Of a DNA stretch of 25,736 nt, positions 3,453 to 18,409 are shown one piece after another; within the stretch, counting starts at the first letter, position 1, and each line of letters starts with the position of its first letter. Source of the DNA: a virus; IMG/VR virus record IMGVR_UViG_3300040801_001593, positions 64,001 to 89,736 of that record. One strand, given 5' to 3'. Under the pieces are notes generated by a model, which was not told where the DNA came from, ran no database searches, and saw only the letters and a program-made list of their open reading frames with translations. A program made the position numbers and the translations under genes.

Positions 3453-4389
3453 CTGGGTAGAGTTCCTTGAAGAGAATGGGTGTAAAGGGGTAATTGATTT
3501 TGGTGATTGGGTGATGTGCAATTGCCCATTCCATGAACAAGAAGATTTTACCAGACCAAGTTTTGGCATTAATAAGGAATCTGGAGCAGGAAACTGTTTT
3601 GGGTGCGGAAAGAAATCTTGGCAAGATATATGTGAGTTGTTTGATATTTCCTCTACTGACTTTATTGAAGGTATCAAGGAAAATGCTTGGGGAAAGTTTA
3701 TGAGAAAAGTGAGGAAAGAAAAAGGTTCAAACAAGTTTCTGAGATTCAAGCTACCTAATGAACTTTGTAACCCATTTGGTCACAAAGGAGCAAGAGATTG
3801 GGCAAGAAAAAGAGGAATTAGTAAAGAGATTATGGAATCTTGTGGGGTAAGACTTTGTATGGATAAGACCAGTAAATACTATGAGCACATAATATTCCCT
3901 ATTAAGGATGAGAAAGGTGTGCTTTATTTTGATGCAAGGTATGTAGGGAAACTTGATAAGCCAAGGTGGAGAGCACCAAAGAAAAGTAATAGGTTGAGAA
4001 CTTTCTATGGCTGGAGGTATAAGACTAAGTTTAAATACTTAGTATTTGTTGAAGGTGCTGGGGATGTACTTAAAATGAAAAGCATGGGTCTTAAGAATAC
4101 CATAGCTGCAAAGAACTTTTCAGATAAGCAGTTTGATTTAATTATCAACTCTGGAGTTAGGTACATTTTCTTAGCTTATGATAATGATGATGCAGGACGT
4201 TATAAGACTTCAGAGAAAACTGGGAAGAATATTTCTTTCAATGCAAAGGCAAAATCTTTATTCAGTAATGCAGGAATTTACATAGCAGAGGTAGAGTTCC
4301 CTAAAGGTTGTAATGATTCTGGAGATATAAAATCAGAGTCTCAATTTTTTAAAATGAACCCTAAGTTAAATAAATTTAAGTCTGTCTGA
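3427..4389 (+). CDS. dnaG: DNA primase, DnaG type (CHC2 zinc finger plus TOPRIM)
   Basis: 320 aa, about half the length of bacterial DnaG; it lacks an evident C-terminal helicase-binding domain. An N-terminal zinc finger of the CHC2 type is visible (C33-x2-H36 and C57-x2-C60, in CNCPFHEQ and NCFGCGKK). A catalytic core follows, with the TOPRIM glutamate in VEGAGDV (E209) and the metal-binding DNDDAGR at 252-258. It should synthesise RNA primers for lagging-strand synthesis with the DnaB-type helicase upstream. The start was set at ATG 3427, which has AAGGA six bases upstream; an ATG at 3421 touches that site and an upstream in-frame ATG at 3397 lies deep in the previous gene. The gene is followed by a promoter region, so it ends the first replication operon. 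Confidence 0.92.
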   Translation: MPTPQQIHDWVEFLEENGCKGVIDFGDWVMCNCPFHEQEDFTRPSFGINKESGAGNCFGCGKKSWQDICELFDISSTDFIEGIKENAWGKFMRKVRKEKGSNKFLRFKLPNELCNPFGHKGARDWARKRGISKEIMESCGVRLCMDKTSKYYEHIIFPIKDEKGVLYFDARYVGKLDKPRWRAPKKSNRLRTFYGWRYKTKFKYLVFVEGAGDVLKMKSMGLKNTIAAKNFSDKQFDLIINSGVRYIFLAYDNDDAGRYKTSEKTGKNISFNAKAKSLFSNAGIYIAEVEFPKGCNDSGDIKSESQFFKMNPKLNKFKSV

Positions 4390-4412
4390 AAAAAAATTAA
4401 CAAAAGCCTTTT

Positions 4413-4440
4413 TTTATTAGAGTAAAAGTAGTATATTATA
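4413..4440 (+). promoter_or_regulatory. Conserved phage promoter block, copy 1
   Basis: TTTATTA at 4413-4419, ten variable bases, then AGTATATTATA at 4430-4440. The same two blocks with the same 10-base spacing recur at 13871-13898. Together they look like a -35/-10 arrangement, with a TTATTA box 17 bases before a TATAGG hexamer, but the identity extends beyond a normal -10 element. It lies in the 93-base gap before the histone-like gene. A long A tract and T tract (4389-4415) sit just upstream. The initiating polymerase (host sigma factor, or phage factor) is not known. Confidence 0.75.
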
Positions 4441-4482
4441 GGAGTGAAAAGGAAAGAACTTTTTATTTAAGGATGTGATGGA

Positions 4483-5310
4483 ATGAGTAAGAAAAAGAAC
4501 TATGCTGTTATGACAATACCAGAGCTTTACCTTTTAGCAGAAAAAAGAGGTATGGTTAAGTATTTTGGCAAGGATGAATCAGAGATGGCAATATTATTAT
4601 CTGAGTGGGATGAGAAGCATTCTGAGGATGAAGAGCTTGAAGAAGCTCCTCCTACAGGTAATAAGAAAACCAAGCCTAAAAAGAAAAGTTTCAGAGCAGC
4701 AGCAGAGAGATTAGTTGATGAAGAAGAAGAGCTTGATGAGCTTTTAGATATTGATGACCTTGATGAGGAAGATGAGTCAGATGAAACTGTTACAGAGAAA
4801 GTTTCTAAAAGATTAGGGACATCTATGAAGACAAGGTCTGGAAGAGATGATGAAGAGGAAGAAGATGAACCTGTAGTTGAAGATGATACTGATGACTTAT
4901 TATCTGATATTTTTGAAGATGATGATGTTGATAAAAATAACAAACCCAATCCTAAAAAGGAGAAAGAAATGGCAACTAAAAAATCAGCCGTGAAAAAACC
5001 TGCTGCAAAGAAAGCAGCAACCAAGAAACCTGCTGCAAAGAAAGCAGAAACCTCTGGAGCAGAAGCTCCATACACTGAAGGAACAGCTGGATTCTGTGCT
5101 TATCTTGCCCTTAAAAAAGGTGGCAAGATGGATTTGATTGTTTCTAACACAGAGAAGCTTATTGCTAAGTACAAAGCAAAACCTTCTGCTAACACTGCAG
5201 GTAAAGTCAAAATCATTATGACTGAAATTAATAAAGGTAAGAAAGGTGACAAATGGGGTCGCTTTACCTTGAATGAGAAGACTGGACGTATCTCTCACAT
5301 TCCTGCTTAA
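4483..5310 (+). CDS. Acidic/basic histone H1-like DNA-binding protein
   Basis: 275 aa in clear segments. Residues about 8-45 (MTIPELYLLAEKRGM) resemble a SAP/Rho-N-like helix pair. Residues 48-160 are very acidic with runs of Asp and Glu. Residues 163-188 are a Lys/Ala/Pro repeat of histone H1 type (KKPAAKKAATKKPAAKKAE). Residues about 195-275 form a compact, Lys-rich domain of unknown type. The protein probably binds DNA and may condense or organise phage DNA; the acidic part could act as an internal chaperone or as a DNA mimic. It stands alone between a conserved promoter and a hairpin, so it is probably made in quantity. An internal ATG at 4969 with an excellent ribosome site could yield only the basic C-terminal 113 aa. 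The start ATG 4483 has AAGG ten bases upstream. Function is inferred from composition. Confidence 0.75.
   Translation: MSKKKNYAVMTIPELYLLAEKRGMVKYFGKDESEMAILLSEWDEKHSEDEELEEAPPTGNKKTKPKKKSFRAAAERLVDEEEELDELLDIDDLDEEDESDETVTEKVSKRLGTSMKTRSGRDDEEEEDEPVVEDDTDDLLSDIFEDDDVDKNNKPNPKKEKEMATKKSAVKKPAAKKAATKKPAAKKAETSGAEAPYTEGTAGFCAYLALKKGGKMDLIVSNTEKLIAKYKAKPSANTAGKVKIIMTEINKGKKGDKWGRFTLNEKTGRISHIPA
4954..4971 (+). promoter_or_regulatory. Internal ribosome binding site and in-frame ATG
   Basis: AAAAAGGAG at 4954-4962 is followed after six bases by ATG at 4969, in frame with the histone-like gene (residue 163). The spacing and sequence are as good as those of the best gene starts in this window. Initiation here would give a 113-aa, strongly basic protein beginning MATKKSAVKK, without the acidic half. 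Because the Lys-Glu codons AAG GAG can make this sequence by chance, the site is a candidate only. Confidence 0.45.
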
Positions 5311-5338
5311 ATCATCCTTTTAGTTGGATTGATTGTAT

Positions 5339-5368
5339 AAAGGGTAGCTCTTAACAGAGTTACCCTTT
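5339..5368 (+). terminator. 13-bp hairpin, probable terminator
   Basis: AAAGGGTAGCTCT (5339-5351) pairs with AGAGTTACCCTTT (5356-5368) over 13 base pairs, one of them G-U, around a TAAC loop. It lies 28 bases after the histone-like gene. The T run after the stem is short (the TTT of the stem), so termination may be partial and the downstream kinase gene may depend on readthrough. The A-rich upstream arm gives it a bidirectional look. Confidence 0.7.
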
Positions 5369-5390
5369 CACTATTAAATAAGGAAAGAAA

Positions 5391-5921
5391 ATGTTACATA
5401 TTGTTGAAGGACTGAATTGCTCAGGTAAAACTACTTTTATAGAGCAGATGGTTGAAAAGTCTGAAAAGAATGTCCCTCTTTTGACTCCTTGGCTTAATCC
5501 TTTAAGGGATGAAAATTTTGGGGGATTTATGTCAAGATTTGGAAAAGACCCGTATTTACTTGGCTCTTATATCACTCTCTACAAGACCTTGTTGGAAAGA
5601 CCATTCTTCCAAAAGTTTAACTATTATCAAGATAGAAGCTTTGTGAGTGGGTTTGTGTATGAGACTTTAGAAAAGGAACCCTTTGATGCTATTGTATCTG
5701 TACTAAAGGATTTGAGACTTTCTATTAGATTTGCTTATGTTGACACTCCTGTGGATCTATGTTTGGAAAGGTTTTATAAGAGACCTGAAGCAAGGGACTA
5801 TCTTCAGAATAAGTATGACTTAAAATCATTCTGGAACAAGGTCTCTTCAAAATTTAATCAGACCTTTGAATTTTTAGACCGTAATGGATTTGAAGTTTAC
5901 AAAAAGAGAATGGAGTACTGA
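5391..5921 (+). CDS. Thymidylate kinase-like nucleotide/nucleoside kinase
   Basis: 176 aa. A P-loop occurs at residues 7-14 (GLNCSGKT), directly after an EG pair as in thymidylate and deoxynucleoside kinases. A DRS motif at 81-83 matches the catalytic/nucleotide-binding DRS or DR(Y/H/S) of that group. A later R-rich lid-like segment (ERFYKRPEARDY, about 125-136) fits as well. It should phosphorylate a (d)NMP or deoxynucleoside in the cytoplasm to feed dNTP synthesis; dTMP is the natural guess because ThyX follows directly. It is slightly shorter than cellular Tmk (about 200 aa). If the phage makes a modified pyrimidine, this enzyme could act on that monophosphate instead. ATG 5391 has AAGGAAAG upstream. 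The gene ends one base before the ThyX start. Confidence 0.75.
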   Translation: MLHIVEGLNCSGKTTFIEQMVEKSEKNVPLLTPWLNPLRDENFGGFMSRFGKDPYLLGSYITLYKTLLERPFFQKFNYYQDRSFVSGFVYETLEKEPFDAIVSVLKDLRLSIRFAYVDTPVDLCLERFYKRPEARDYLQNKYDLKSFWNKVSSKFNQTFEFLDRNGFEVYKKRMEY

Positions 5922-5922
5922 A

Positions 5923-6789
5923 ATGAAGATTGAAAGAGTAAATTTAGGGGCATCCATCTTTGGAACTGAAAAACCTTTGATGAGGTACAGAACTGATAAG
6001 TTCCCTTTAGCAGTAAGCTTATTAGCAGCACCAGCAAATCCTGAACATATTGCAGCAGCAAACTATAAGACTTGTATTGAAGGGGAGTTGGTTTATCCTC
6101 AGACCTTAACTGACAAAGAAGCTAAGGAAACTTTCAAGTGGGTAATGCAAGGTGGTCACACTCCTTCCTTAGAGTGTATACACTTGACATTTGGAGTGGA
6201 GAATGCATCAGTTGTCCTATTGAAGCAGATTTCTCGCCACCGGATAGGTAATTCTTTAGGAGTCATGACTCAGAGAGCTAAGTCAGAGGAATGGCTTGGC
6301 AACATGTATGATGGTCACTATGTAACACCGCCTTCTTTTATGGGTAGACCCAAGGTACACCAGGCATACAATGATTTGGTTCTAGCTTCTCAGAACTTTT
6401 ATAATCTTGCAATAGCAGAGGGCATCCAACAGGATGAAGCTCGTTATGGAATAATCCAAGGAGCTAAAACACTTTGGCATGGAACCTACTCTTACAAGAC
6501 TGTTCTGGACTCTATATGTTCAACTCGTATGTGTCATATTATGCAGGGAGAGATGGTTGCTCTATCTCACCTTATGGCTGCAGCAGTTAAAGACTATAAT
6601 GAGCTTATGGGAGATGCTTTGAAACCTATCTGTCTAAGATATGGGAATTGTAACCGTAATGAAAACAACCCAACTAAAGACCATCCTAAAGGAGTTTGTA
6701 AACTTACTATAGATGGTACAGTGCCTGTTAGGAAAGTTGAAGTTGAAAAATATGATTTGACACAGTACAGTAAGGATGCTACCAAATGA
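5923..6789 (+). CDS. thyX: Flavin-dependent thymidylate synthase ThyX, divergent
   Basis: 288 aa. ThyX methylates dUMP to dTMP with methylene-tetrahydrofolate, FAD and NADPH. The RHR of the ThyX signature is at 105-107, followed by IGNSLGVMTQR rather than the usual RHR-x7-S. The alignment needs a one-residue insertion and places Thr116 where the nucleophile-activating serine of the family normally is. The remainder fits the family (ISRHRIG, and a C-terminal MCHIMQGEMVALSHLM region resembling the AQ.E.R helix). It is longer than many ThyX proteins (about 220-250 aa); a C-terminal extension has two cysteines (GNCNRNE, GVCKL). The start ATG 5923 was chosen because GGAG lies 7 bases before it; upstream in-frame starts overlap the kinase. 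The stop overlaps the next start. Family is fairly sure; substrate may differ. Confidence 0.82.
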   Translation: MKIERVNLGASIFGTEKPLMRYRTDKFPLAVSLLAAPANPEHIAAANYKTCIEGELVYPQTLTDKEAKETFKWVMQGGHTPSLECIHLTFGVENASVVLLKQISRHRIGNSLGVMTQRAKSEEWLGNMYDGHYVTPPSFMGRPKVHQAYNDLVLASQNFYNLAIAEGIQQDEARYGIIQGAKTLWHGTYSYKTVLDSICSTRMCHIMQGEMVALSHLMAAAVKDYNELMGDALKPICLRYGNCNRNENNPTKDHPKGVCKLTIDGTVPVRKVEVEKYDLTQYSKDATK

Positions 6790-8036
6790 TAGCAATATTG
6801 GGTGGTGGTCCAAGTGGACTAATGTGTGCAAATTACCTTAAAGAGCAGAAGCACCCTTTTGTGCTTCTCTCTACTGGTGGTAATGGATTTTCTGAGGAGT
6901 CTGCAAACGGTCTTAAGTTTAAGTCAGGTCAAAGGACTTTATTTGCCCATAAGGATATGGATGAATTCATCAAGACTAAAGCATACAGGACAAAGAAGGT
7001 TAGCCTATCTGAATTAACATCTGTATGCTACAAAGGAAGTTTTTATAAATACCCTGTCCAAAACAATCTTCCTTTTAAGGAAAAGTTTAAAGCTTGGTTA
7101 AGCTATATTGTCAGAGACCGTAAGAAAGCAAGTAGTGATAACTTTGCAGATTGGGCAGTAGGTAACTATGGGAAATATATTTCTAATAATGTAATATTGC
7201 CTCATACTTGGAAAACTATTAAGGAAGACTTATTGGAGATACAATCCTCCTCTTTTGGTCAGAAGGTAGTACCAATGAAGCTATTCAACAAGGATAGCTC
7301 TAACATTATGGAATATGAGAATGCTTCTCTATTGTTGAAAGAGTTAGAGAAGAATGTAGCTAAGAATATGGAAAATGCTAAGGTTCTAAGTATAGACCCA
7401 AAACATAAGACTATAGAATTAAGGAATATGGATAATGATGACCCTCATCAAAATATTCACAGGATAACCTATGATAAGGTCATAAACACCATAGCTCTGC
7501 CAAAGTTAATGAGAATGGTAAAAGGAGCTAAAGATGAAGACATTATTGATGTAGCAACAAGAAGCTTACACTACAACAATATGTTTTTAGCTGTGATGAT
7601 AGTTCCTACTAAATTTATAAAATTGCCTTATAAAATAGTTTACTTTCCAGAAAGAGATTATTTATTTTCTAAGGTAAATATAACTAAAGGAGAAGGGTAC
7701 TCTGTAATAAGCTCTGAGGTAAGTTTTAGAAAAAATGATGAGTCCCTTTTACAAAGCCAAGCATATTGTAATAAGATTTTGGAAAGAGTAGAGTATGACT
7801 TGAAGAAGGCAGGAGTGATAGCAGAAAGGATGTTTGCTACTTTTGAGACTAGACATAAGGTCATAAGTCCTGCTTACATTATTTGTGATTCTGATTATGA
7901 TATGTATAATAGCATACTTCAAACTTGGTTGAATCAAAAAGGTATTTTTAACATTGGAAGATTTGCTGAATGGGTTCCTCACAAAAGAGTAGAACACTCT
8001 TTGGCAAAGGTTAAGGAGTTTTGTGATGGTTTATGA
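6786..8036 (+). CDS. FAD-dependent oxidoreductase/mutase-like protein
   Basis: 416 aa. The N-terminus is a textbook dinucleotide-binding fold (AILGGGPSGLMCANYL, glycines at 6-8 and 11), here for FAD. The C-terminal stretch NIGRFAEWVPHKRVEHSL (about 390-407) matches the second FAD contact (GRFG.W...) of UDP-galactopyranose mutase, protoporphyrinogen oxidase and amine-oxidase-like flavoproteins. The substrate cannot be read from sequence. Candidates are a nucleotide-sugar mutase supplying the adjacent glycosyltransferase, or an oxidase acting on a modified nucleotide. It overlaps ThyX by 4 bases (ATGA) and the glycosyltransferase by 11, so the three are co-translated and probably work in a related pathway. 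No signal peptide or membrane segment is evident. Confidence 0.75.
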   Translation: MIAILGGGPSGLMCANYLKEQKHPFVLLSTGGNGFSEESANGLKFKSGQRTLFAHKDMDEFIKTKAYRTKKVSLSELTSVCYKGSFYKYPVQNNLPFKEKFKAWLSYIVRDRKKASSDNFADWAVGNYGKYISNNVILPHTWKTIKEDLLEIQSSSFGQKVVPMKLFNKDSSNIMEYENASLLLKELEKNVAKNMENAKVLSIDPKHKTIELRNMDNDDPHQNIHRITYDKVINTIALPKLMRMVKGAKDEDIIDVATRSLHYNNMFLAVMIVPTKFIKLPYKIVYFPERDYLFSKVNITKGEGYSVISSEVSFRKNDESLLQSQAYCNKILERVEYDLKKAGVIAERMFATFETRHKVISPAYIICDSDYDMYNSILQTWLNQKGIFNIGRFAEWVPHKRVEHSLAKVKEFCDGL

Positions 8037-8823
8037 TACATTCCCTTTAAACAATGAGTTGGACTTATTAGAGATAAGGTTAATTGAATTAGACTCTGTT
8101 GTTGATAAGTTTGTGATAGCAGAATTGCCAATACTATACAAAGGAAATGATAGAGAGCTTACTGGCATTATGGATATGAAGAGATTTGAACCATGGAGAC
8201 ACAAGATGGTATATCTTACCCAAGATAAGGAAACCATCCACAAGTCTCTTCCAAATAAGTTTGTTCCTAATGACGTAGAGAAGTTTCAAAGAAACTTGAT
8301 TCTTAAATATGTTGATAGCGTCATGGAACCTGATGATGTTATAATCCATGGTGATGTTGATGAGATTCCTAAAGCAACTATGGTTAAGATGTTTGTTAAT
8401 AGTAATTATGAGAAAGTAGTATTTAAAACTAAATTGTTTAGATATTACTACAACCTATATTTCCAAGACTGGAAACACCTATTTGCTATTAGAGGGAAGT
8501 TTTTGAAAGGTACTAAATGTTTAGACACCTTAAGGAAACAGTATACTGATAGATGGGTAAGGGTTGAAAATGCTGGATGGCACTTTTCCTCTGTAGGCTC
8601 TTTTGCAAGCATAATGAGAAAATTTAAAGATATGGATTGCTTTGGACCACAGAAGTTCAATAAGAAACTAGGAACTGCCAGCAGGATTAAGGAGAGGATA
8701 GAGAAGAGGTTGCACCCATTTAAAGATGGTAAAAACCAAGGCAAAGTAATGTCCTTAAGACATATGCCACTAGCAATTCAGAATGATATGAAGTACTGGA
8801 AATACTTAACAAAGGATAAATAA
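8026..8823 (+). CDS. Glycosyltransferase, GT17-like
   Basis: 265 aa. The sequence follows the GT17 family pattern closely: an opening YDTFPLNNELDLLEIRL, a strand with DKFVIAE, a DxD-type motif in HGDVDEIP (D110, D112), and GWHFSS near residue 188. GT17 members (bisecting GlcNAc transferase relatives) transfer a sugar from a nucleotide sugar; viral and bacterial members have mostly unknown acceptors. In this context the acceptor could be a modified DNA base, a phage protein or a host surface glycan. The start ATG 8026 has AAGGAG seven bases upstream and is preferred over the GTG at 8023. The stop overlaps the polymerase start by one base (TAATG). Family assignment is strong; acceptor is unknown. 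Confidence 0.85.
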   Translation: MVYDTFPLNNELDLLEIRLIELDSVVDKFVIAELPILYKGNDRELTGIMDMKRFEPWRHKMVYLTQDKETIHKSLPNKFVPNDVEKFQRNLILKYVDSVMEPDDVIIHGDVDEIPKATMVKMFVNSNYEKVVFKTKLFRYYYNLYFQDWKHLFAIRGKFLKGTKCLDTLRKQYTDRWVRVENAGWHFSSVGSFASIMRKFKDMDCFGPQKFNKKLGTASRIKERIEKRLHPFKDGKNQGKVMSLRHMPLAIQNDMKYWKYLTKDK

Positions 8824-11800
8824 TGGGGAATAAATTCACCCACCTTCATTTACATACTGAGTATTCCTTTTTAGATGGAATGTCTAAAGTATGGGATGCT
8901 TCCAGTAAAAGTGCTGGAGAGTTAATTGAGAGACTTAAGGATATAGGGCAAGAGTCTTGTGCTATTACTGACCATGGTAGTACTGCTGGTTGGGTAAGGT
9001 TTGAGAAAGCTTGTTCTAATAATGGCATTAAGCCCATATTGGGAGTAGAGGGGTATTACTGTAATGATAGAAAGATAAAAGGACTCAATGATGCACAAAA
9101 GCTACAGGCTGAAAGGGGATTGAGTACAGTAAAGGATAAGAATAAGGCTAAGAGGGAGTTTGAAGCTGTTCTAGGTCTTTCTCGCAGGTCTCACTTCTGC
9201 TCTTGGGCTATGAATAAGAAAGGGTCTTATGAGATTCTTGCTACTATGAGTGAGGCAGCATTGAATGGATTCTATCACAGACCAAGATGGGACTGGTCAC
9301 TTATAAAAGTGATGAAGAACTGCTTGTTTGGTTCAGGTTGTATGGGAGGTATCCTTGCTTATGAGTTGATAAGAGTTATTGATGGAAAAGAGCCAAAATC
9401 TAAACTTGCAGAATATAAGGAAAGGGCTTGGGATGAAGCCAAGAAATGGAAAAAACTTTTAGGTGATAGATTCTATATAGAAATGATGGCTATTGATATG
9501 AAGAGCCAACCTAAGATTAATAGATTAATGGCAGCAATTGGTAAGGATTTGGGAATACCTCTAATAATCACTAATGACCCTCATTATGTTAATCCAGAAG
9601 ATTGGGAAGCTCATGATGTATTGTTGGCAATCAATTCCACTCGCTATGACAAGATTAAAGATGCTTTGAATGACCCTAACAGGTTAAGGTATGAGGCTCA
9701 GGACTTATATGTAAAGAGCTATGATGAGATGTATGATAGTTTTACCAAGCACAATCCAACTATACCAGATAGTATGGTAAAAGAAGCTTTGCAAAACACT
9801 CAAGAAATAGCAGATAGATGCAAACCATCTTTAATTAAAGGTACTATGGTTATGCCTCACCTTGACATTCCTGAGTTGAAAGATTTTGAAGATGAAAAAG
9901 ATGCTCAAAAGGCTCACTTAATAACTCTCTGTAAGGAAGGATGGGCAAAGAAGATTAAAGGCACAGTTCCTAAAAAGCTTATCCCAGAATATAAAGATAG
10001 GCTTAAGGAAGAGTTGGGCCAAATAACAGGTCAAGGTTTCACTCCTTACTTTATCCTATGTAATAAACTTATGAAGTGGTCTGACAAGCATGAGTTAGAA
10101 CGTGGTCCAGCAAGGGGAAGTAGTTGTGGCTCAATTGTAGCTTATCTTTTAGACATCACTATGATTGACCCTATTCCACACAAGTTGCTATTCAGTAGGT
10201 TTATAGACCCTAACAGAACTGACTACCCTGATGTTGATATGGACTTTGAGGATAGGAGAAGAAGGGAAGTTGTACAATACTTTATAGATGAGTATGGAAG
10301 GAATAATGTTGCCATTTTAGGGAACAATATGACCTTTAAAGCTAAAATGAGTCTTAAAGATGTTGCCAGACTTTATGGAGTACCTTTGCCAGAAACTCAG
10401 GAAGTATGTAACCTTGTGATTGAAAGAAGTGGCGCTGACTCTCGTTTAAGCTTCTGTCTTAGTGATACTTTTGAACAGTTTGACTTTGCTAAAGAGTATG
10501 CCAGAAAATATCCAAAGGTTCCTCTATTCTCTGCTAAGTTGGAAGGGACTGTGAAGCAACAAGGTGTTCATGCTGCTGGAGTAGTTATTGCTGATGGAGA
10601 TATTAGAAAGTACACATCTTTAAGGAAAGATAAGAAATCAGACTTTCCAGTAACTACTATAGATAAACATGATGCTGAAGATGTTGGTCTTTTAAAGATG
10701 GATGTTCTGGGTCTTAATACCATGACTATCCTTAATGAGTGTAAGAGATACATCAGAGAAAGACATGGCAAGTGGATAGACTTAGAGGACTTGGTAAGAG
10801 ATGTTACTTATAATGGAGGAGACAAAGGTGTGTATAAAGAGTTTGCACAAGCTCATACTGTTGGAATCTTTCAGTTTGGTAGCCCTGGATTGACAAGGTT
10901 GTCTAAACAAGTCAAGATTGATAAATTTTCTGAAATATCTGACTGTACAGCTCTCCACAGACCTGGACCTATACATTCAGGTGCAATGAATAAATACCCT
11001 GCTCTTAAATTTGGAACAGCTAAGAGAGAAAAAGCAGAGCACCCTATAATTGAGAAGTGGACTAAAGATACTTATGGGTTGATTATCTATCAAGAGCAAG
11101 TGATGCAGATAGTAAGAGAGCTTGGAGATTTTGACTGGGGGCAAACTAATACTGTGCGTAAAGTTATGTCTAAGTCTGGTGGTGCTGAATACTTTATGAA
11201 GACATTCTTCCCTCAGTGGAGAAAAGGATGTATGGAAAAGGGCTTGACAGAGAAGCAAGCAGAAGAAGCATTTAAAAGGATTATGAGCTTTGGGTGTTTG
11301 TCAGGAGACACATTGGTCTTGAACCCTTACCCTAACCAAAGTGCTAAGAAGTGGGTAAAAATAAAGGACTTGTATGAATGTGATGGATATGCTTCACCTT
11401 TAGCAAAAGGCAGTAAAAAGCAAGCTTCTGTGAAGATGCAGAGCTATTCCCTTACAGAAGGAAGGCTAAAACCTAACCGCATAGCAAAAGTGTTTTGTAA
11501 TGGTGTTAAGGAGTTGTTTGAGATAACTACTGAATCTGGTAAGAAAATAAAAGCAACAAGTGAGCATAGATTTGTAATTAAAAAAGGTAAGTCTAAGCCT
11601 AAGTTTGAAAGAGTAAAGAACTTTAAAGAATTTGAAACAACAATTGCTATGGATGGAGGGTACAGCAAAGAATCTTTCAACCCAGACTTTGCAGACGGAT
11701 TAAAAGATAAGACATATGGACAAGAAGAGATAGATGCATTCAAATTATCTATGAGCTCAAAACCTTGTGATGTATGCAAGATTAAATTCAAAGATAAAGA

Positions 11801-13544
11801 TATGGAAATACATCACTTAACATATGACAACCCTAACTCAAGGTTGATGTGGGTGTGTAATAGTTGTCACAAGGCGCTTGAGCAGAGTAAGTCAGGTAGA
11901 ACTAAGAAAGATACCAAAGGTCATAAAATAATATTTGAGAAGATTGTGTCTATAAAAAGTGTTGGTGAAGAGTTAGTGTATGACATAGAAATGGAAGACA
12001 AGAAACGCCCAACACTTGTTGCTAATGGATTTGTGTCTCACAATTCTTGGGCTTTCAACGCCTCCCACTCAGTAGCTTATGCTTTTGTGAGTTACTTCTG
12101 CATGTGGTTTAAATACCACTACCCTATAGAGTATTGTACAGCTTATCTTAATACAGTTAATGGTTCAGGTGCAGATGCAACAAAGAAGATTAAGGAGATG
12201 ATTAAAGAAGTAGAGAGATTGGGTATATCTCTATCAGAGCCTAATGTAAATGTTTCTAAACATAACTTTGTTATTGATGGTGATAAAATTGTATCTGGTC
12301 TATCTAATGTTAAGAATGTTGGTAGTAAAGCAGTAGATACAATAGTAGAATGCCAGCCGTTTGATTCTTTATTAGATTTCTTTGAGAGGATTGATAATAG
12401 AGCTTGTAATAAACGTAGTGTTGAGAACCTTATTATGGCAGGTGCATTTGATGTGTTTGGATATGATAAGAAAACTCTTTTAGATAACTTTGAGGAGATT
12501 CACAAAAATGTCAAGAAGAAAAGTCCAAAAGCAAAACAAGAGGTTAAAAGGCTTCTGGAAGAGTGTAAAGGTGAGGAAAGTTTTACTGACCAAGAAGAGG
12601 CAGAGGTCAAAGCATCGGTCTCACCTGTGACTGTTGGGAAGCATCTTTGTGAATATTATGGTGATGTTGAGGGTGCATTTGCTTCTCACATTAACCTTAT
12701 GAAATTATCAGATATTGAGCAAGATGAAGGAGAACAACAAAAGGATAGGTCTCAAACTAAAAGACTGGATGTTGTTATTAGAGGAGTTTTGACTGCTGTT
12801 GACTTGAAGAGATTGTCTCAGGAAACTAAAGATGTAATCAATGAAGCAGAAGAGCAGAGGTATGCATTAGCTAATCTTGAAGATGAAACTGACTTTATTG
12901 TCCTATCTTTTAAGGGAGATATTTATAAAAGATATGAACAAGAGCTACATAAGTGGAAAGGCAAGGTTCTTCTTATAAGAGGAAGTGTTAATGTTGGTTG
13001 GAAGAAAGTATTTGTAGATTCTGTATATGAAATGGATAAGTTAAGGAAATATATGAATGGGGATAAGAAACCTTATAACTTTGGCTATAATTATCTATTT
13101 CAGCACCCTCTCAACCGCTATTTTGATAAGTATGGAGGTATTAAGGCTATAAGAGAAAAATATAAATGTAGACCCTTAATCAATGTGGCTAAGCTTCCTA
13201 TAAATAAAACTATGTGGGCATTAGGTGTAATAGTAGACATACAAACCTTTACTGCCAAGAGAGGAAAGATGGCAGGTCAAGACTTTTATTGGGTATTCTT
13301 TGAGGATGAAACCTTCCAAGGTTCATTTATGGTATTCCCTAGCGATAACAGATTTAAGAAAATGAAGGAAGATTTATTTGCTCTGTACAAGTCCAAAGCT
13401 CCATTCTTATTAAGAGTCCAAAGAGATATGAAGTTCAAAAGAGATGTGATGGGATTTAAACAAGTGAGTATTTCTATTGATAAAAGAATTGCTTGGAATG
13501 AAATGATTAAAACACCTTTCAAATTTAAAGGAGGTAGAAAATGA
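8823..13544 (+). CDS. dnaE: DNA polymerase III alpha subunit, DnaE type, with an intein
   Basis: 1573 aa as translated; about 1323 aa after intein removal, slightly longer than bacterial DnaE. The N-terminal PHP domain keeps metal-ligand-like residues: HLHLH (H9, H11), D18, DH at 50-51, E76, H124 and NDPH (D252, H254). That pattern suggests a working PHP nuclease for proofreading. The C-family palm has PDVDMDF (D470, D472, D474) and the third catalytic aspartate in KMDVLGL (D627). After the intein, FNASHSVAYA matches the conserved DnaE motif; helix-hairpin-helix-like and OB-fold-like segments follow (about 1160-1200 and 1460-1530). It should be the replicative polymerase. It overlaps the preceding gene by one base and the next by four. 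No separate epsilon exonuclease, sliding clamp or loader gene is visible in this window. Confidence 0.95.
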   Translation: MGNKFTHLHLHTEYSFLDGMSKVWDASSKSAGELIERLKDIGQESCAITDHGSTAGWVRFEKACSNNGIKPILGVEGYYCNDRKIKGLNDAQKLQAERGLSTVKDKNKAKREFEAVLGLSRRSHFCSWAMNKKGSYEILATMSEAALNGFYHRPRWDWSLIKVMKNCLFGSGCMGGILAYELIRVIDGKEPKSKLAEYKERAWDEAKKWKKLLGDRFYIEMMAIDMKSQPKINRLMAAIGKDLGIPLIITNDPHYVNPEDWEAHDVLLAINSTRYDKIKDALNDPNRLRYEAQDLYVKSYDEMYDSFTKHNPTIPDSMVKEALQNTQEIADRCKPSLIKGTMVMPHLDIPELKDFEDEKDAQKAHLITLCKEGWAKKIKGTVPKKLIPEYKDRLKEELGQITGQGFTPYFILCNKLMKWSDKHELERGPARGSSCGSIVAYLLDITMIDPIPHKLLFSRFIDPNRTDYPDVDMDFEDRRRREVVQYFIDEYGRNNVAILGNNMTFKAKMSLKDVARLYGVPLPETQEVCNLVIERSGADSRLSFCLSDTFEQFDFAKEYARKYPKVPLFSAKLEGTVKQQGVHAAGVVIADGDIRKYTSLRKDKKSDFPVTTIDKHDAEDVGLLKMDVLGLNTMTILNECKRYIRERHGKWIDLEDLVRDVTYNGGDKGVYKEFAQAHTVGIFQFGSPGLTRLSKQVKIDKFSEISDCTALHRPGPIHSGAMNKYPALKFGTAKREKAEHPIIEKWTKDTYGLIIYQEQVMQIVRELGDFDWGQTNTVRKVMSKSGGAEYFMKTFFPQWRKGCMEKGLTEKQAEEAFKRIMSFGCLSGDTLVLNPYPNQSAKKWVKIKDLYECDGYASPLAKGSKKQASVKMQSYSLTEGRLKPNRIAKVFCNGVKELFEITTESGKKIKATSEHRFVIKKGKSKPKFERVKNFKEFETTIAMDGGYSKESFNPDFADGLKDKTYGQEEIDAFKLSMSSKPCDVCKIKFKDKDMEIHHLTYDNPNSRLMWVCNSCHKALEQSKSGRTKKDTKGHKIIFEKIVSIKSVGEELVYDIEMEDKKRPTLVANGFVSHNSWAFNASHSVAYAFVSYFCMWFKYHYPIEYCTAYLNTVNGSGADATKKIKEMIKEVERLGISLSEPNVNVSKHNFVIDGDKIVSGLSNVKNVGSKAVDTIVECQPFDSLLDFFERIDNRACNKRSVENLIMAGAFDVFGYDKKTLLDNFEEIHKNVKKKSPKAKQEVKRLLEECKGEESFTDQEEAEVKASVSPVTVGKHLCEYYGDVEGAFASHINLMKLSDIEQDEGEQQKDRSQTKRLDVVIRGVLTAVDLKRLSQETKDVINEAEEQRYALANLEDETDFIVLSFKGDIYKRYEQELHKWKGKVLLIRGSVNVGWKKVFVDSVYEMDKLRKYMNGDKKPYNFGYNYLFQHPLNRYFDKYGGIKAIREKYKCRPLINVAKLPINKTMWALGVIVDIQTFTAKRGKMAGQDFYWVFFEDETFQGSFMVFPSDNRFKKMKEDLFALYKSKAPFLLRVQRDMKFKRDVMGFKQVSISIDKRIAWNEMIKTPFKFKGGRK
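11295..12044 (+). mobile_element. DnaE intein with HNH homing-endonuclease domain
   Basis: 250 residues (825-1074 of the precursor) interrupt the polymerase between SFG and SWAFNASH. It begins with Cys1 (CLSGDTLV, block A), has a block B with TSEHRFVI (T-x-x-H), and ends in block F/G with VYDIEM...ANGFVSHN. The next residue, Ser1075, is the +1 nucleophile. In the middle is an HNH nuclease: CDVC at 982-985, HH at 997-998, N1003, CNSCH at 1012-1016. Splicing should restore an intact polymerase; the nuclease would cut intein-free dnaE alleles and spread the element. All splicing residues appear intact. This is a contiguous, not a split, intein. Confidence 0.93.
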
Positions 13545-13852
13545 ATTTAGTAGCTGAGAAAAAACTTTCAGTATTGAGAACAGAGGCAGAGGTAAATGCA
13601 AAGGACTTCCCTACATACCAAAGAAAAGAACAGTGGAAAGCAGGGATAGTGAAGATTAAAATAATTGCTGCTGACTCTGACCCTAAGAAATCAGATGTTT
13701 CTTGGTATTGGGAACTTGTTGGTAATGACATGCTTGTCTATGATAAAGGGGATTTGGGATTTATGTCTGTAAGCTCTCGCAATTACATCAAGAGAGAGCA
13801 TGCCAGAATAATTCAAAGTAAGGAAATACACGAGAAATATTTGTCTAAATAA
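13541..13852 (+). CDS. Hypothetical protein, 103 aa
   Basis: No family recognised. The start is well supported: AAAGGAGGT ends four bases before ATG 13541, and the ATG overlaps the polymerase stop (ATGA), so this gene is coupled to dnaE. The protein is small, soluble and basic, rich in Lys and aromatic residues (WYWELVG near 59-65). The pattern of short strands with charged loops, for example a KIKIIAADSDP strand followed by VSWYWEL, suggests a small beta-rich fold. It could be a polymerase accessory subunit, judging only from position. It ends 18 bases before the second conserved promoter block, so it closes the polymerase operon. Confidence 0.7.
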   Translation: MNLVAEKKLSVLRTEAEVNAKDFPTYQRKEQWKAGIVKIKIIAADSDPKKSDVSWYWELVGNDMLVYDKGDLGFMSVSSRNYIKREHARIIQSKEIHEKYLSK

Positions 13853-13870
13853 AAAAAACTTTTCTCTTTA

Positions 13871-13898
13871 TTTATTAATTACCTTTTAGTATATTATA
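13871..13898 (+). promoter_or_regulatory. Conserved phage promoter block, copy 2
   Basis: TTTATTA at 13871-13877, ten variable bases, then AGTATATTATA at 13888-13898. Both blocks and the spacing are identical to copy 1 at 4413-4440, whereas the ten bases between differ. Here a perfect TATAAT (13895-13900) lies 17 bases after the TTATTA box, so host sigma-70/sigma-A recognition is possible. An AT-rich inverted repeat (TAAATAAA at 13849-13856 with TTTATTTA at 13867-13874) overlaps the end of the preceding gene and the promoter. It drives, by position, the UvsY-like and SSB-like genes. Confidence 0.78.
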
Positions 13899-13928
13899 AT
13901 TAATTAGGAAAGAGAAGAAGGGAAAGAG

Positions 13929-14462
13929 ATGGCTAAAGCAACATTTACTGAACTTTTTAAAAAGATTGATGATGACATTAGTTCAAATCTCATGACTCGT
14001 TATGAAGGTGAGCTAGACATCTCAAAGGTCTTAGACACTTCTTATCTGAAAGATGATTTGCAAGGGTTGATAAAAGAAATTACTCAACAGCCTGCTGTGT
14101 ATGCATATTGGGCTAATTTAAGAAGGATTGCTGATGAGAGATATGAGGAGGTGGAAAGAAAATTTGAACTAGCAAAATCAAGAAGAATGAAAATGGTTCT
14201 GCAAGACTTGTCAAGTAATGGTATAACAAGACCAAATCAAAAGCAAGTAGAAGCTAAGTTCCATGACATTAATAAGGAAGCTGAGTGGTACACAAAGTTT
14301 CAAGCCCACCTAAAAACTTGGGGGCAAAGAAAGAAGACTTTGGCTATTATTGAAAAAGCTGTCTCTGCAAGAGGTGACAGCTTTAGAAGCTTAAGCTATT
14401 TGGTAGGGAATATGATGAATCAAGGTATCTATTATAAACAACAAAAATCTAAAACTTTTTAG
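13929..14462 (+). CDS. UvsY-like recombination mediator candidate
   Basis: 177 aa, soluble and helical. I do not recognise a definite family, but the layout resembles T4 UvsY: an N-terminal segment, a helix with YAYWANLRRIADERYEEVE, a basic middle, then a helix around YTKFQAHLKTWGQ, and a final helix with A.SARGDSFRSLSYL. UvsY loads UvsX/RecA onto SSB-coated ssDNA, and this gene sits directly upstream of the SSB-like gene with RecA shortly after, which fits. The gene follows the conserved promoter by 30 bases and its start is preceded by GGGAAAG. Its stop codon (TAG) lies inside the ribosome binding site of the next gene (TTAGGAGG), so translation is coupled. The similarity is one of pattern, not strong sequence identity. 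Confidence 0.5.
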   Translation: MAKATFTELFKKIDDDISSNLMTRYEGELDISKVLDTSYLKDDLQGLIKEITQQPAVYAYWANLRRIADERYEEVERKFELAKSRRMKMVLQDLSSNGITRPNQKQVEAKFHDINKEAEWYTKFQAHLKTWGQRKKTLAIIEKAVSARGDSFRSLSYLVGNMMNQGIYYKQQKSKTF

Positions 14463-14470
14463 GAGGTTCC

Positions 14471-15490
14471 ATGGCTAGACGTGGATTTAAAACAACCAGT
14501 GACCCTAATGAGGGTCTTAAAAACCAGCTCAAAATGGAGACTGGTAAAACTTATTACCTTAAACTGGCTATTCCTGATTATATTGAGGAATGGACAGAGT
14601 GTTGGCCAGGATTTCCGGCTGAAGATGGTATCAACAAAAGACGCTTTGTTGGTGATGTTGATAACAAAAACAAAAACCTTGCTCCTCTTTCTACTTATAA
14701 GAAAGAAAATGGTTTGCCTGATATTGGAGAACGTGAGCAGAAGAATTGGAAACCTTCTACCAGATATGCTACTATTGTAGCTATTGGTACTGAAGTTACT
14801 AAAAAAGTAACTCCTGCTATGGTCAAGAAAAAACCTGCTCTTAAAAATCGCAAGAGCATCCGTATGATTCAGTGGGATAAAGAGAACCTTAAAGTTTGGC
14901 TTTTTGGTATTGAAGTAATGCGTCAATTGAAAGCTATTAATAATGATGCTGACAATATTGATAAGCTTATTGATAAGGGTCATGACTCTGATGAGACTTA
15001 TGTGACTGATGTATTTGCCATAAAAGTAGAGAAAATTTCTAAAGGCTCAAAAGCTTGGGAAGTTACCTACACTGTGACTGTTGGGAAATATACTGGTGTT
15101 TTCTCTGAAGAAGAAATGCCAAACCTTGACTCTGTTCTTAAAGAACTTGAAAGTCATGCTGCTCCAACTCCTTCATCTGTTATTGAAGACTTCTTGGCTG
15201 AAAATGGCGGGGAGTTCTCTACAGAAGCTGATTCTGAAGAAGATGAGGATGAGGATAATGCTCCTGATGAAGAAGAAGAATTGGATGTTGATGTTGAAGA
15301 AGATGCTGAAGAGGAAGATGAAGAGGAAGAGGAAGAAGCTCCTGCTCCTAAAAAGAAACCTGCCAAAAAGAAAGCAGCAAAAAAGAAGCCTGAGCCTGAA
15401 CCTGAAGAGGAAGATGAGGAAGATGCTGAAGAAGAAGGTGAAGAAGATGATGATGACCTTGATGATTTAGGAGACCTTGACGACCTTTAG
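14471..15490 (+). CDS. Single-stranded DNA-binding protein-like (gp32-type role)
   Basis: 339 aa. Residues about 1-235 form a mixed basic/aromatic, beta-rich domain suited to an OB fold (YYLKLAIPDYI, IRMIQWDKENLKVWLFGIE, WEVTYTVTVGKY). Residues 250-339 are an extreme acidic tail interrupted by one lysine-rich patch (KKKPAKKKAAKKKPEPEPEE). A folded N-domain plus acidic C-terminal tail is the hallmark of phage SSBs such as T4 gp32 and T7 gp2.5, where the tail contacts replication proteins and regulates binding. Gene context (UvsY-like, RecA, gp46/47) supports this. Arginine codons are mostly CGT/CGC (6 of 9), unlike the AGA/AGG used by neighbours, as expected for high expression. AGGAGG lies four bases before ATG. 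A terminator follows. Role is inferred from architecture and context. Confidence 0.72.
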   Translation: MARRGFKTTSDPNEGLKNQLKMETGKTYYLKLAIPDYIEEWTECWPGFPAEDGINKRRFVGDVDNKNKNLAPLSTYKKENGLPDIGEREQKNWKPSTRYATIVAIGTEVTKKVTPAMVKKKPALKNRKSIRMIQWDKENLKVWLFGIEVMRQLKAINNDADNIDKLIDKGHDSDETYVTDVFAIKVEKISKGSKAWEVTYTVTVGKYTGVFSEEEMPNLDSVLKELESHAAPTPSSVIEDFLAENGGEFSTEADSEEDEDEDNAPDEEEELDVDVEEDAEEEDEEEEEEAPAPKKKPAKKKAAKKKPEPEPEEEDEEDAEEEGEEDDDDLDDLGDLDDL

Positions 15491-15498
15491 TCACCTTT

Positions 15499-15526
15499 GC
15501 TGGAGGGCTTAATGCCCTCTGGCTTT
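15499..15526 (+). terminator. Rho-independent terminator after the SSB-like gene
   Basis: GCTGGAGGGC (15499-15508) pairs with GCCCTCTGGC (15514-15523) over 10 base pairs including two wobble pairs, around a TTAAT loop, followed by TTTCTATAAT. It is GC-rich in an AT-rich genome and begins nine bases after the stop codon. It closes the two-gene unit that starts with the promoter block at 13871. Downstream genes may need readthrough or an unrecognised promoter. Confidence 0.82.
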
Positions 15527-15543
15527 CTATAATAGGAATGAGC

Positions 15544-16050
15544 ATGAAACTAAAAGAATGTACACTATGCAACTTACATAAGGCAAGGGAGCATACCTCT
15601 TTTTCAAGAGGTCACAAACCTTCCTCTGTTCTTATCCTTTTTGATAGAGAACCTATGACTATGAGAGGTTTAGATGCTCTACAAGAATTTATAAGGAAAT
15701 TAAACTACCATTTGAAACATGATTACTATTATTCCTTTCTTATCAAGTGTGCTTGTGATGAAGATATATCCTCTGACAATATTAAGGCTTGCAGAAGATG
15801 GTTCAGAAAAGAATTTGAAAAAGTTGACCCTTACTTAATTATAATGATGGGTAAATACTCTACTGCTGCTTGCCTTGGAGGAAAATACTATAAGCTACTT
15901 CAAGAGAATATATTTTATACTAAGACTGGAGAAGATGGGATAAAAAGACAATATTTTGTTGGTGCTGATATAAATGCATCTGAATCAAGACTCAAAGAAA
16001 ACTTAAATTATTTAGAACGCTTCATAAAGGATTTTTATAATGCCTCCTAA
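15544..16050 (+). CDS. Uracil-DNA glycosylase-fold protein (family 4-like), probably non-catalytic
   Basis: 168 aa. The sequence resembles Fe-S (family 4/5) uracil-DNA glycosylases: an N-terminal C6-x2-C9, a strand FLIKCACDE (C69), C83 in ACRRWFRKEF, then a strand VDPYLIIMMGK like the family's IRPRVIVALG. These four cysteines could hold a 4Fe-4S cluster. The catalytic motifs are not recognisable: the GEAPG loop reads LFDREPM, and the C-terminal HPS-like motif reads ADINASE. It therefore may bind DNA or a replication partner without excising uracil. The start ATG 15544 has TAGGA six bases upstream and is preferred to ATG 15538, which abuts it. The gene overlaps recA by 11 bases and sits among recombination genes. 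An alternative is a divergent active enzyme with other catalytic residues. Confidence 0.65.
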   Translation: MKLKECTLCNLHKAREHTSFSRGHKPSSVLILFDREPMTMRGLDALQEFIRKLNYHLKHDYYYSFLIKCACDEDISSDNIKACRRWFRKEFEKVDPYLIIMMGKYSTAACLGGKYYKLLQENIFYTKTGEDGIKRQYFVGADINASESRLKENLNYLERFIKDFYNAS

Positions 16051-17053
16051 AAGGAATAATGCCAAGACTTCACTCAATAGTGTGGATGCTTTAAGGCAAA
16101 AACTAAACAAAGATTATGGAAATGGTTTTGTAGTATCTGATGAAGTAGATACTAACATTGACTGGGTGTCTACTGGCATACCTACTTTGAACAGAGTCCT
16201 TGGTGGTGGATTCCCAAGAGGTAGAATACTTGAAGTATTTGGTCCAGAATCTTCAGGAAAGACTTCCCTGACTCTTCATGCAATAGCAAAGTATCAAAAG
16301 AGAGGGTATGCTTGTGCCTTTGTTGATGCAGAGTATAGTTTTACTAAATCTTGGGCACAAGGTTTTGGAGTAAATACTGATGACCTTCTTCTACTTCAAC
16401 CTGATTGTGGAGAAGATGCTTTGAACTCTGTTGAAGCTATGATTAAGTCTAATGTTATGGATTTAATTGTTGTAGATTCAGTGTCTGCTTTAGTACCAAA
16501 AGCTGAGGTGGATGGAGAGGTGGGAGCTTCTCATGTAGGTCTACAAGCAAGGATGATGTCACAAGCCTTAAGAAAACTGACTGGAATGATTGGTAAAACT
16601 AAAACAACTCTTATCTTCATAAATCAAATAAGGACAAAGATAGGAGTTATGTTTGGTAATCCTGAAACCACTTCTGGTGGTAATGCTTTAAAATTCTATT
16701 GCTCTCAAAGAATAGATGTAAGACGTACTGGTATTATAGGAAGCAAGGAAAGTCCAAAGGGAATCACTCAAAAGATGAAAGCCATAAAGAACAAGTGTGC
16801 TCCTCCTTTTAGAGAGACTGTGTTGAAACTCTATTATGGTAGAGGTTATGATGTTATCTCTGATTTGTTTGAGCAAGGGTTAAATTGTGGCATAATTGAG
16901 AAGAGTGGAGCATGGTACTCCTATGATGGAGAGAAACTTGGTCAAGGTGAAGAGAAGTCTATCAAAGCAATAAAAGCAGATAAAGAAAAATTAAAAGGCT
17001 TAATGAAAGCTGTTAAAGAATTTAATGAAGTAGGAGATGAAGATGAAGATTGA
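16040..17053 (+). CDS. recA: RecA recombinase
   Basis: 337 aa, near the usual RecA length. Walker A GPESSGKT is at 68-75; the catalytic glutamate is in VDAEY (E98; bacterial RecA usually reads DAEH). Walker B DLIVVD has its aspartate at 146. The L2 region GNPETTSGGNALKFY, with QIRTKIGVMF before it, is almost textbook bacterial RecA. It should form filaments on ssDNA and catalyse strand exchange in recombination-dependent replication and repair. The C-terminus is short, with a small acidic tail (GDEDED), which in RecA tempers DNA binding. It is closer to bacterial RecA than to T4 UvsX. The start ATG overlaps the UDG-like gene by 11 bases and has AAAGGA eight bases upstream; the MazG-like gene overlaps its end. 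Confidence 0.95.
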   Translation: MPPKRNNAKTSLNSVDALRQKLNKDYGNGFVVSDEVDTNIDWVSTGIPTLNRVLGGGFPRGRILEVFGPESSGKTSLTLHAIAKYQKRGYACAFVDAEYSFTKSWAQGFGVNTDDLLLLQPDCGEDALNSVEAMIKSNVMDLIVVDSVSALVPKAEVDGEVGASHVGLQARMMSQALRKLTGMIGKTKTTLIFINQIRTKIGVMFGNPETTSGGNALKFYCSQRIDVRRTGIIGSKESPKGITQKMKAIKNKCAPPFRETVLKLYYGRGYDVISDLFEQGLNCGIIEKSGAWYSYDGEKLGQGEEKSIKAIKADKEKLKGLMKAVKEFNEVGDEDED

Positions 17054-17405
17054 AAACTATGTGCAGCTTTCTGGAAGAACTGATGTAAATTATGCTCAGT
17101 TGGATCTTTCAGATATACAGAAAGCCCTAACTCACGCAGCTTTTGGTTTATCTACTGAAAGTGGAGAGATTGTGGATACCATTAAGAAAAATATATTTTA
17201 TGGTCAACCTCTTGATATTGACAACATCAGAGAAGAAATTGGAGACCTTATGTGGTATGTTGCCATCCTATCTCGTCACTTAGAAATAGATATACCTGAA
17301 GTATTAGAGGAAAACATCAACAAGCTCAAAAAGAGATACCCAAAAGGATTTACTGAAGAGCATGCCAAGGAAAGATTGGATAAGAAAGAGATAGTTGTAT
17401 CATGA
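17043..17405 (+). CDS. mazG: MazG-like nucleotide pyrophosphohydrolase
   Basis: 120 aa, a single MazG-type all-alpha NTP-PPase domain. The metal-binding acidic motifs are present as E39-x2-E42 (STESGEIVD) and E65-x2-D68 (EEIGDLMWY), with the typical lysine between (DTIKKNIFYG) and the C-terminal NINKLKKRYPKGF found in phage MazG proteins. It hydrolyses (d)NTPs to monophosphates and pyrophosphate. Phage versions are thought to remove unwanted dNTPs such as dUTP or to adjust nucleotide pools; here it could support a changed base content together with ThyX. The start ATG 17043 has AGGAG six bases upstream; the ATG at 17037 touches that site. It overlaps the end of recA by 11 bases and the next gene by 4. 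Confidence 0.88.
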   Translation: MKIENYVQLSGRTDVNYAQLDLSDIQKALTHAAFGLSTESGEIVDTIKKNIFYGQPLDIDNIREEIGDLMWYVAILSRHLEIDIPEVLEENINKLKKRYPKGFTEEHAKERLDKKEIVVS

Positions 17406-18409
17406 GTATGAGATGGTTACTAACTGCTGACTGGCATCTAAAACACAAACACCCTTTCTCTCTTATGGTAAATGGTAAGTTATGGGATAGGATGTGTGAA
17501 GAGAAGCTTAAAGTTTTGAGAAAGTTTCCTGCTCATGCCAAGAAGCTAAAAGTTGATGCAGTCTTGATTGCTGGGGATGTATTTGACACTTCTAATCCTC
17601 CTGAAGCTTTGAAGGCTGAATTTGTTAAGATTATTATGGACTTTGAATGCCCTGTGTATATCATAACAGGCAGACCTGGTGACCATGACTATGTGAGTAA
17701 AAGTAATTTTGTTCTTATGGATATTAGAGAAGCATTAGGAAGAGTTGATTCAAATGTTTATATCCATGACACAAATCAACTCCACCTCTCTACAGGGGTG
17801 ATGATGTTCCATGATATGTTGGAAGGAATATCTGATTTCTATAAGAATGTAGTAACTTTGAAGGATGAAAGGTTTGCTGATTATAAAACTATAATGATGG
17901 GTGATTATCATGCTCACTATCATACTACTTATGGTCAAAAGTTCTTCATCTATCCTGGTCCACCATTTCCAACTAGATATGGAGAGAGTGACCATGGTTT
18001 AGTAGTTTTGGAAACTGATAGCAAAACTGGTAAATACATAAGACACAAATATCATAAAACTAAAAGCTATAGACTTTTAGATTTGAACAACTTAGACTCT
18101 GCACCTAAATGTGATGTACCTTATGTTGCCAGATATAACTTGACTGTTCCCTCTCAGGAAGTCCCAACAACTCTTAGAGCTTGTGAGGATTTGAAGAAGG
18201 AATTGATGATGGGTGAGCACAATGATTCAAATTGTATGGATGTGGTATGGAAAGTTAAAGCAGAAAATGTGACAACTGATATAGATGGTAATGAGATTGA
18301 AGACCATTCCTTATCAGAAACTTGTAAAAACTATATAGAGAAGAACTCAGGCAATTTAAAAAAGAGTGCTTTGAGCCTTCTCTCTAAATTAGAGAAAGCA
18401 GTTGAATGA
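17402..18409 (+). CDS. sbcD: SbcD/Mre11/gp47-like recombination nuclease subunit
   Basis: 335 aa metallophosphoesterase. Motifs in order: ADWHL (D10, H12), AGDVFD (D59), GDHD at 93-96, FHD (H137), and GDYHAHYH (H170, H172). The family usually has GNHD; here the metal-binding asparagine is aspartate (D94). Paired with the SbcC-like ATPase downstream, it should act as a dsDNA end-processing exonuclease/endonuclease that prepares ends for RecA, as T4 gp47/gp46 do, and helps degrade host DNA or resolve recombination ends. It starts in an ATGA overlap with the MazG-like gene; the ribosome site is weak (AAAGAGA), so it probably relies on coupling. An ATG at 17408 is an alternative start. The stop overlaps the next start. 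Assignment is strong. Confidence 0.9.
   Translation: MSMRWLLTADWHLKHKHPFSLMVNGKLWDRMCEEKLKVLRKFPAHAKKLKVDAVLIAGDVFDTSNPPEALKAEFVKIIMDFECPVYIITGRPGDHDYVSKSNFVLMDIREALGRVDSNVYIHDTNQLHLSTGVMMFHDMLEGISDFYKNVVTLKDERFADYKTIMMGDYHAHYHTTYGQKFFIYPGPPFPTRYGESDHGLVVLETDSKTGKYIRHKYHKTKSYRLLDLNNLDSAPKCDVPYVARYNLTVPSQEVPTTLRACEDLKKELMMGEHNDSNCMDVVWKVKAENVTTDIDGNEIEDHSLSETCKNYIEKNSGNLKKSALSLLSKLEKAVE

Follow-up and report, generated by a model that had tools for sequence, protein, structure and literature searches.

What reads two intergenic sites that look like a single bipartite promoter? The sites lie in 25,736 nucleotides of viral DNA, hereafter called the window, that make up positions 64001-89736 of a virus contig 89,736 bases long. 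Both carry TTTATTA-N10-AGTATATTATA on the + strand, at 4413-4440 and 13871-13898, with zero mismatches and differing spacers, as the earlier note had described. A motif scan of the window allowing up to 3 mismatches found exactly these two sites against 0.16 expected, and a mismatch search of the whole contig returned no other perfect copy, the next best match having 3 mismatches. We argue that both sites are very probably ordinary phage promoters that would be read by the host housekeeping RNA polymerase (sigma70/sigmaA) through a T-rich -35 and an extended -10, with TTTATTA as a coincidental addition.

The contig belongs to a tailed phage, judging from its genes for terminase, portal, head maturation protease, tape measure and replication proteins, the last including DnaE with an intein, a UvsX-like recombinase, DnaB helicase and primase. 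Megablast against named phages gave no match, that is, no near-identical phage, and the terminase is less than 30% identical to those of the best-ranked Bacillus, Thermus and Streptomyces phages. Gene calling over the contig with a simple codon-usage method yielded 107 genes (93% coding), after which every gap was inspected. A relative, the 105,409-base contig G001, has ~51 proteins in common with this phage, largely in the same order, and its best DnaE segment is 61% identical. In the window, the DNA polymerase III alpha subunit gene (8823-13544) is split by an intein, with residues ~842-1074 matching an intein splicing domain and with an HNH-like CxxC...HH...CxxC region; the ortholog in the relative is ~250 residues shorter.

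In the window, well-supported genes leave four clear gaps of 50 bp or more between them: 4390-4482, 5311-5390, 13853-13928 and 15491-15543. The earlier note was therefore wrong to call the two promoter-bearing gaps (4390-4482 and 13853-13928) the only ones before a new transcription unit without an overlap. The other two hold terminator-like hairpins, and three additional listed gaps are probably missed genes. The elements of the two promoter gaps are as follows.

4409..4414, + strand: putative -35 region of promoter 1, TTTTTT, with a 17-bp spacer (from the sequence and column -23 of the aligned sites)
4413..4419, + strand: upstream box TTTATTA, copy 1, judged coincidental (not common to the other 19 sites; unconserved in the relative)
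4430..4440, + strand: AGTATATTATA, copy 1, with -10 hexamer TATATT at 4432-4437 (4 contig copies; TATATTA in the orthologous gap of the relative)
13867..13872, + strand: putative -35 region of promoter 2, TTTATT, with a 17-bp spacer (from the sequence and the aligned sites)
13871..13877, + strand: upstream box TTTATTA, copy 2, judged coincidental, overlapping an imperfect inverted-repeat arm (from the aligned sites and the gap in the relative)
13888..13898, + strand: AGTATATTATA, copy 2, with -10 hexamer TATATT at 13890-13895 (contig recurrence; gap in the relative)

The right half of the motif belongs to a recurrent element. AGTATATTATA occurs four times in the contig, always between genes and always in the sense direction of the next gene. 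Its generalized form, TA[GT]TATATT[AT], is found 15 times in the 6.5 kb of intergenic DNA of the whole contig and 0 times in its 83 kb of coding DNA. All but one of the 15 sites (14/15, including two before leftward genes) have a same-strand start codon 30-116 bases downstream. Counted per gap, TAKTATATT is present in sense orientation in 14 of 27 gaps, in antisense orientation in 2, and after shuffling in 0.8 gaps. The enriched hexamer, both in this phage and in the relative, is TATATT and not TATAAT, which shows no sense enrichment (12 sense, 12 antisense). TATATT matches TATAAT at 5/6 bases and is present in both copies and, owing in part to the way sites were chosen, in 20 of 21 aligned sites. 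An unsupervised motif search returned only the Shine-Dalgarno sequence at short widths, and the -10 element emerged at width 30. Because it is intergenic, directional and upstream of start codons, TA[GT]TATATT[AT] behaves, by its sequence distribution, as a promoter -10 element.

This element is also retained in the relative. In front of the 4483-5310 ortholog, the gap retains TATATTA and does not retain TTTATTA. In front of the 13929-14462 ortholog, the gap has a TATTATATTATAGT-like sequence around the -10, including TATATTA, and reads TTCATAA at the left-box offset, a 5/7 match to TTTATTA that amounts to a 3-mismatch version of the motif. The -10 is therefore conserved in both gaps, and the upstream box exactly in neither. 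Together with gap position, orientation, start-codon distance and recurrence, conservation in the relative gives good support to the proposal that both sites are promoters.

Where the -35 contact would lie emerges from an alignment of 21 gap sites anchored on TATATT. One site per gap was picked by hand, those with TA[GT] in front being favoured, which means that the columns immediately preceding TATATT are partly selected; not all 21 sites are independent, because some left-arm gaps are visibly duplicated. At column -23 from the hexamer, 18 of the 21 sites have T (P ~9e-6 per column, 3e-4 after 40 columns). This T most likely opens a -35 box set 17 bp from the -10, and the boxes so placed match TTGACA at only 2/6 and 3/6 bases in the two copies. 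One gap (17138-17484, contig coordinates) contains an exact TTGACA-17-TATAAT, after which comes the ATAAGAGTAG context also seen at a TATATT site; its downstream ATAAGAG is likewise found at a TATATT site.

Three promoters, at contig 16390, ~17430 and 24194, have AACGAT in common in the -35/spacer region. One of them is a perfect palindrome, AATCGTTGACAACGATT, that contains TTGACA and could be a repressor operator.

Ordinary sigma70/sigmaA-type promoters are the most likely reading because of the T at -23, the canonical TTGACA-17-TATAAT site and the absence of TTTATTA elsewhere. E. coli RpoD promoters of the forms TTTAAA-17-TATATT and TTAAAA-17-TATATT exist (PMC3946193), and since RpoD accepts the former, host polymerase would be the simplest reader. 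A generic sigma70 scan listed neither site and saw no surplus of promoters across the window's first 16.5 kb.

The earlier note had seen in the two copies a hint of a phage-specific promoter class, and the recurrent -10 element bears out the part of that suggestion that concerns a class. As for phage specificity, a divergent phage sigma factor or a phage-modified host polymerase might prefer TAKTATATTW, with T at the fifth -10 position, in all gaps. The enrichment of TATATT over TATAAT in both phages would fit this, as would the conserved context that reaches past the hexamer. We nevertheless consider it unlikely: the element precedes left-arm, structural and replication genes alike (temporal class being guessed from gene position), the canonical site shares its context, and TATATT is accepted by host sigma70 (PMC3946193). 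Moreover, searches of both phages for Sigma70_r2 and Sigma70_r4 found no match, although a very divergent sigma factor may escape them; the contig may be incomplete, and its small proteins were in part scanned against all families. PHROG scans of additional unknown proteins found no transcription factor that explains the promoter class, PF00940 (single-subunit RNA polymerase) had no match in the phage or, equally, in control genomes, and a literature search for TATATTATA phage promoters found none. It is similarly improbable that the TAKTATATTW of this phage and its relative, whose fifth base departs from the bacterial consensus, reflects specificity altered by a so far unrecognised phage protein.

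TTTATTA fares worse. As a second box it was rejected on the evidence of the aligned sites, the shuffles and both orthologous gaps. It stands at its offset (-19) in only 2 of the 21 sites; over the other 19 the mean match is 2.05/7, among the lowest of all offsets, and the other two AGTATATTATA sites match at 0/7 and 1/7 bases. With the right half taken as given, shuffling these two flanks produces an in-register 7-base match upstream in 3.3% of cases, and in 9% when any two of the four AGTATATTATA sites may form the pair. Both flanks are ~76% A+T, and the match looks like a coincidence in AT-rich DNA. The 18-base identity clearly exceeds chance in its right half and probably not in its left, and the idea of a two-box site with fixed boxes and spacing is not supported. 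We accordingly give little credence to an operator at which one protein would bind TTTATTA and AGTATATTATA together, at fixed spacing and at these two sites only. Eighteen identical bases in register, the low shuffle rate for this particular pair and the TTCATAA version in the copy 2 gap of the relative speak for it, whereas the poor matches at the other AGTATATTATA sites and across the 19, and the loss of TTTATTA in the copy 1 ortholog gap, speak against it. That the sites are chance resemblances with no promoter function is scarcely credible, since the -10 element stays out of genes, has a preferred direction and is conserved in the relative, even if AT-rich flanks do yield in-register 7-base matches in shuffles.

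Downstream of the two promoters, which we continue to read as ordinary sigma70/sigmaA-type sites, lie the following features.

4483..5310, + strand: gene of promoter 1, encoding a 275-aa acidic, lysine-rich protein with no family match (ortholog in the relative, 29% identity)
5339..5368, + strand: terminator-like hairpin AAAGGGTAGCTCT/AGAGTTACCCTTT with a weak T tail (-18.2 kcal/mol, z -5.0)
13929..14462, + strand: first gene of promoter 2, 177 aa, phrog_1069, function unknown (ortholog in the relative, 35% identity)
14471..15490, + strand: second gene of promoter 2, 339 aa, with an acidic C-terminal tail, possible single-strand DNA-binding protein (weak PHROG match)
15499..15523, + strand: intrinsic-terminator-like hairpin closing cassette 2 (-19.4 kcal/mol, z -5.2)

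Twice, then, a promoter, a short cassette and a terminator-like hairpin follow one another amid a row of overlapping replication genes. A terminator scan accepts the T-rich tail of the hairpin at 15499-15523; the tail of the one at 5339-5368 is weaker. By inspection, the gaps of the relative orthologous to both hairpin gaps also hold hairpins, and the counterpart of 5311-5390 has a T tail. An Rfam search gave no match. The 14471-15490 product may be a phage single-strand DNA-binding protein, given a weak PHROG SSB match over its low-complexity tail and the gene order. Its core is conserved in the relative, a Pfam search gave no match, and the AlphaFold model of this acidic-tailed protein, with a pLDDT of 41, is too poor to be of use. 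A search for further orthologs of the cassette genes found only those of the relative.

From these observations we infer polymerase identity, start site and expression logic. Each promoter would work through its extended -10, T.TA[GT]TATATT[AT], and, 17 bp before it, a weak -35 box rich in T. TTTATTA, which lies four bases past the -35 position, would be AT-rich spacer. Transcription would start ~7 bases past each -10, with transcript 1 running through the gene at 4483-5310 and transcript 2 through the two genes at 13929-15490, each to its terminator-like hairpin. Such an arrangement would supply additional transcript for abundant proteins of the DNA-binding type, inside a replication operon that is otherwise continuous.

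In several gaps the -10 is surrounded by inverted repeats. These are strong at contig 814-902 (GCTCTTTTATA...TATAAAAGAGC) and 62727-62824 (AACTCTTTACTT...AAGTAAAGAGTT), each with a TATATT element in the loop. N4-like promoters inside hairpins were rejected as a feature of the class: only 4 of the 21 sites reach p<=0.05, and the two window copies have p 0.20 and 0.16 (RNA fold z -1.6 and -1.2).

Other repeats mark the noncoding DNA of both phages. Contig 15219-16400 is a stretch of ~1.2 kb without good genes that is dense in short direct repeats (CAAAATTCAATGG x4.8; CCATGACGCCCATGACC) and may be an origin of replication or an array with a regulatory role. Similar AAATTCAATGG repeats occur in the relative (L093:6145-6224), likewise just before a TATATT site. 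The left-arm gaps at contig 4250-4412, 10376-10472, 12573-12657 and 13153-13229 have a long near-identical block, TATTAAATTTTATAKTATATTTATAATAGAA..., in common, as though promoter regions had been copied from one interval between small genes to another. The relative has a repeated block of its own before small genes, AAAGTCATWACTCKTCAG...TTCAGGTATAYMYT...TATACCC (gaps 53252, 58222, 60139, 61327 and 65371), which is absent from the phage of the window.

The outcome is a promoter map of ~20 sites that can be used for an uncultivated phage lineage, and the preference for TATATT could help to identify its host. It also illustrates the risk of comparing two copies alone: in AT-rich DNA, a perfect match of two boxes can be misleading.

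Two known systems offer a comparison. Promoters of phage sigma factors in phiEco32-like phages have the motif tAATGTAtA, or GTAAtg-16-aCTA in phage 7-11 (PMC8948821). Like the sites described here, they are recurrent short motifs upstream of phage genes, bipartite in the case of 7-11. They differ in sequence, and phiEco32-like phages encode a sigma factor of which no counterpart was found here, where the motif serves all gene modules. Set against bacterial sigma70/sigmaA promoters (TTGACA-17-TATAAT), the phage sites have weak -35 boxes (2-3/6), no TG extension and a preference for TATATT over TATAAT. In other respects they resemble them: TATATT is one base off, the conserved T lies at the 17-bp distance, the sites share position and direction before genes, and one site in the contig matches TTGACA-17-TATAAT perfectly.
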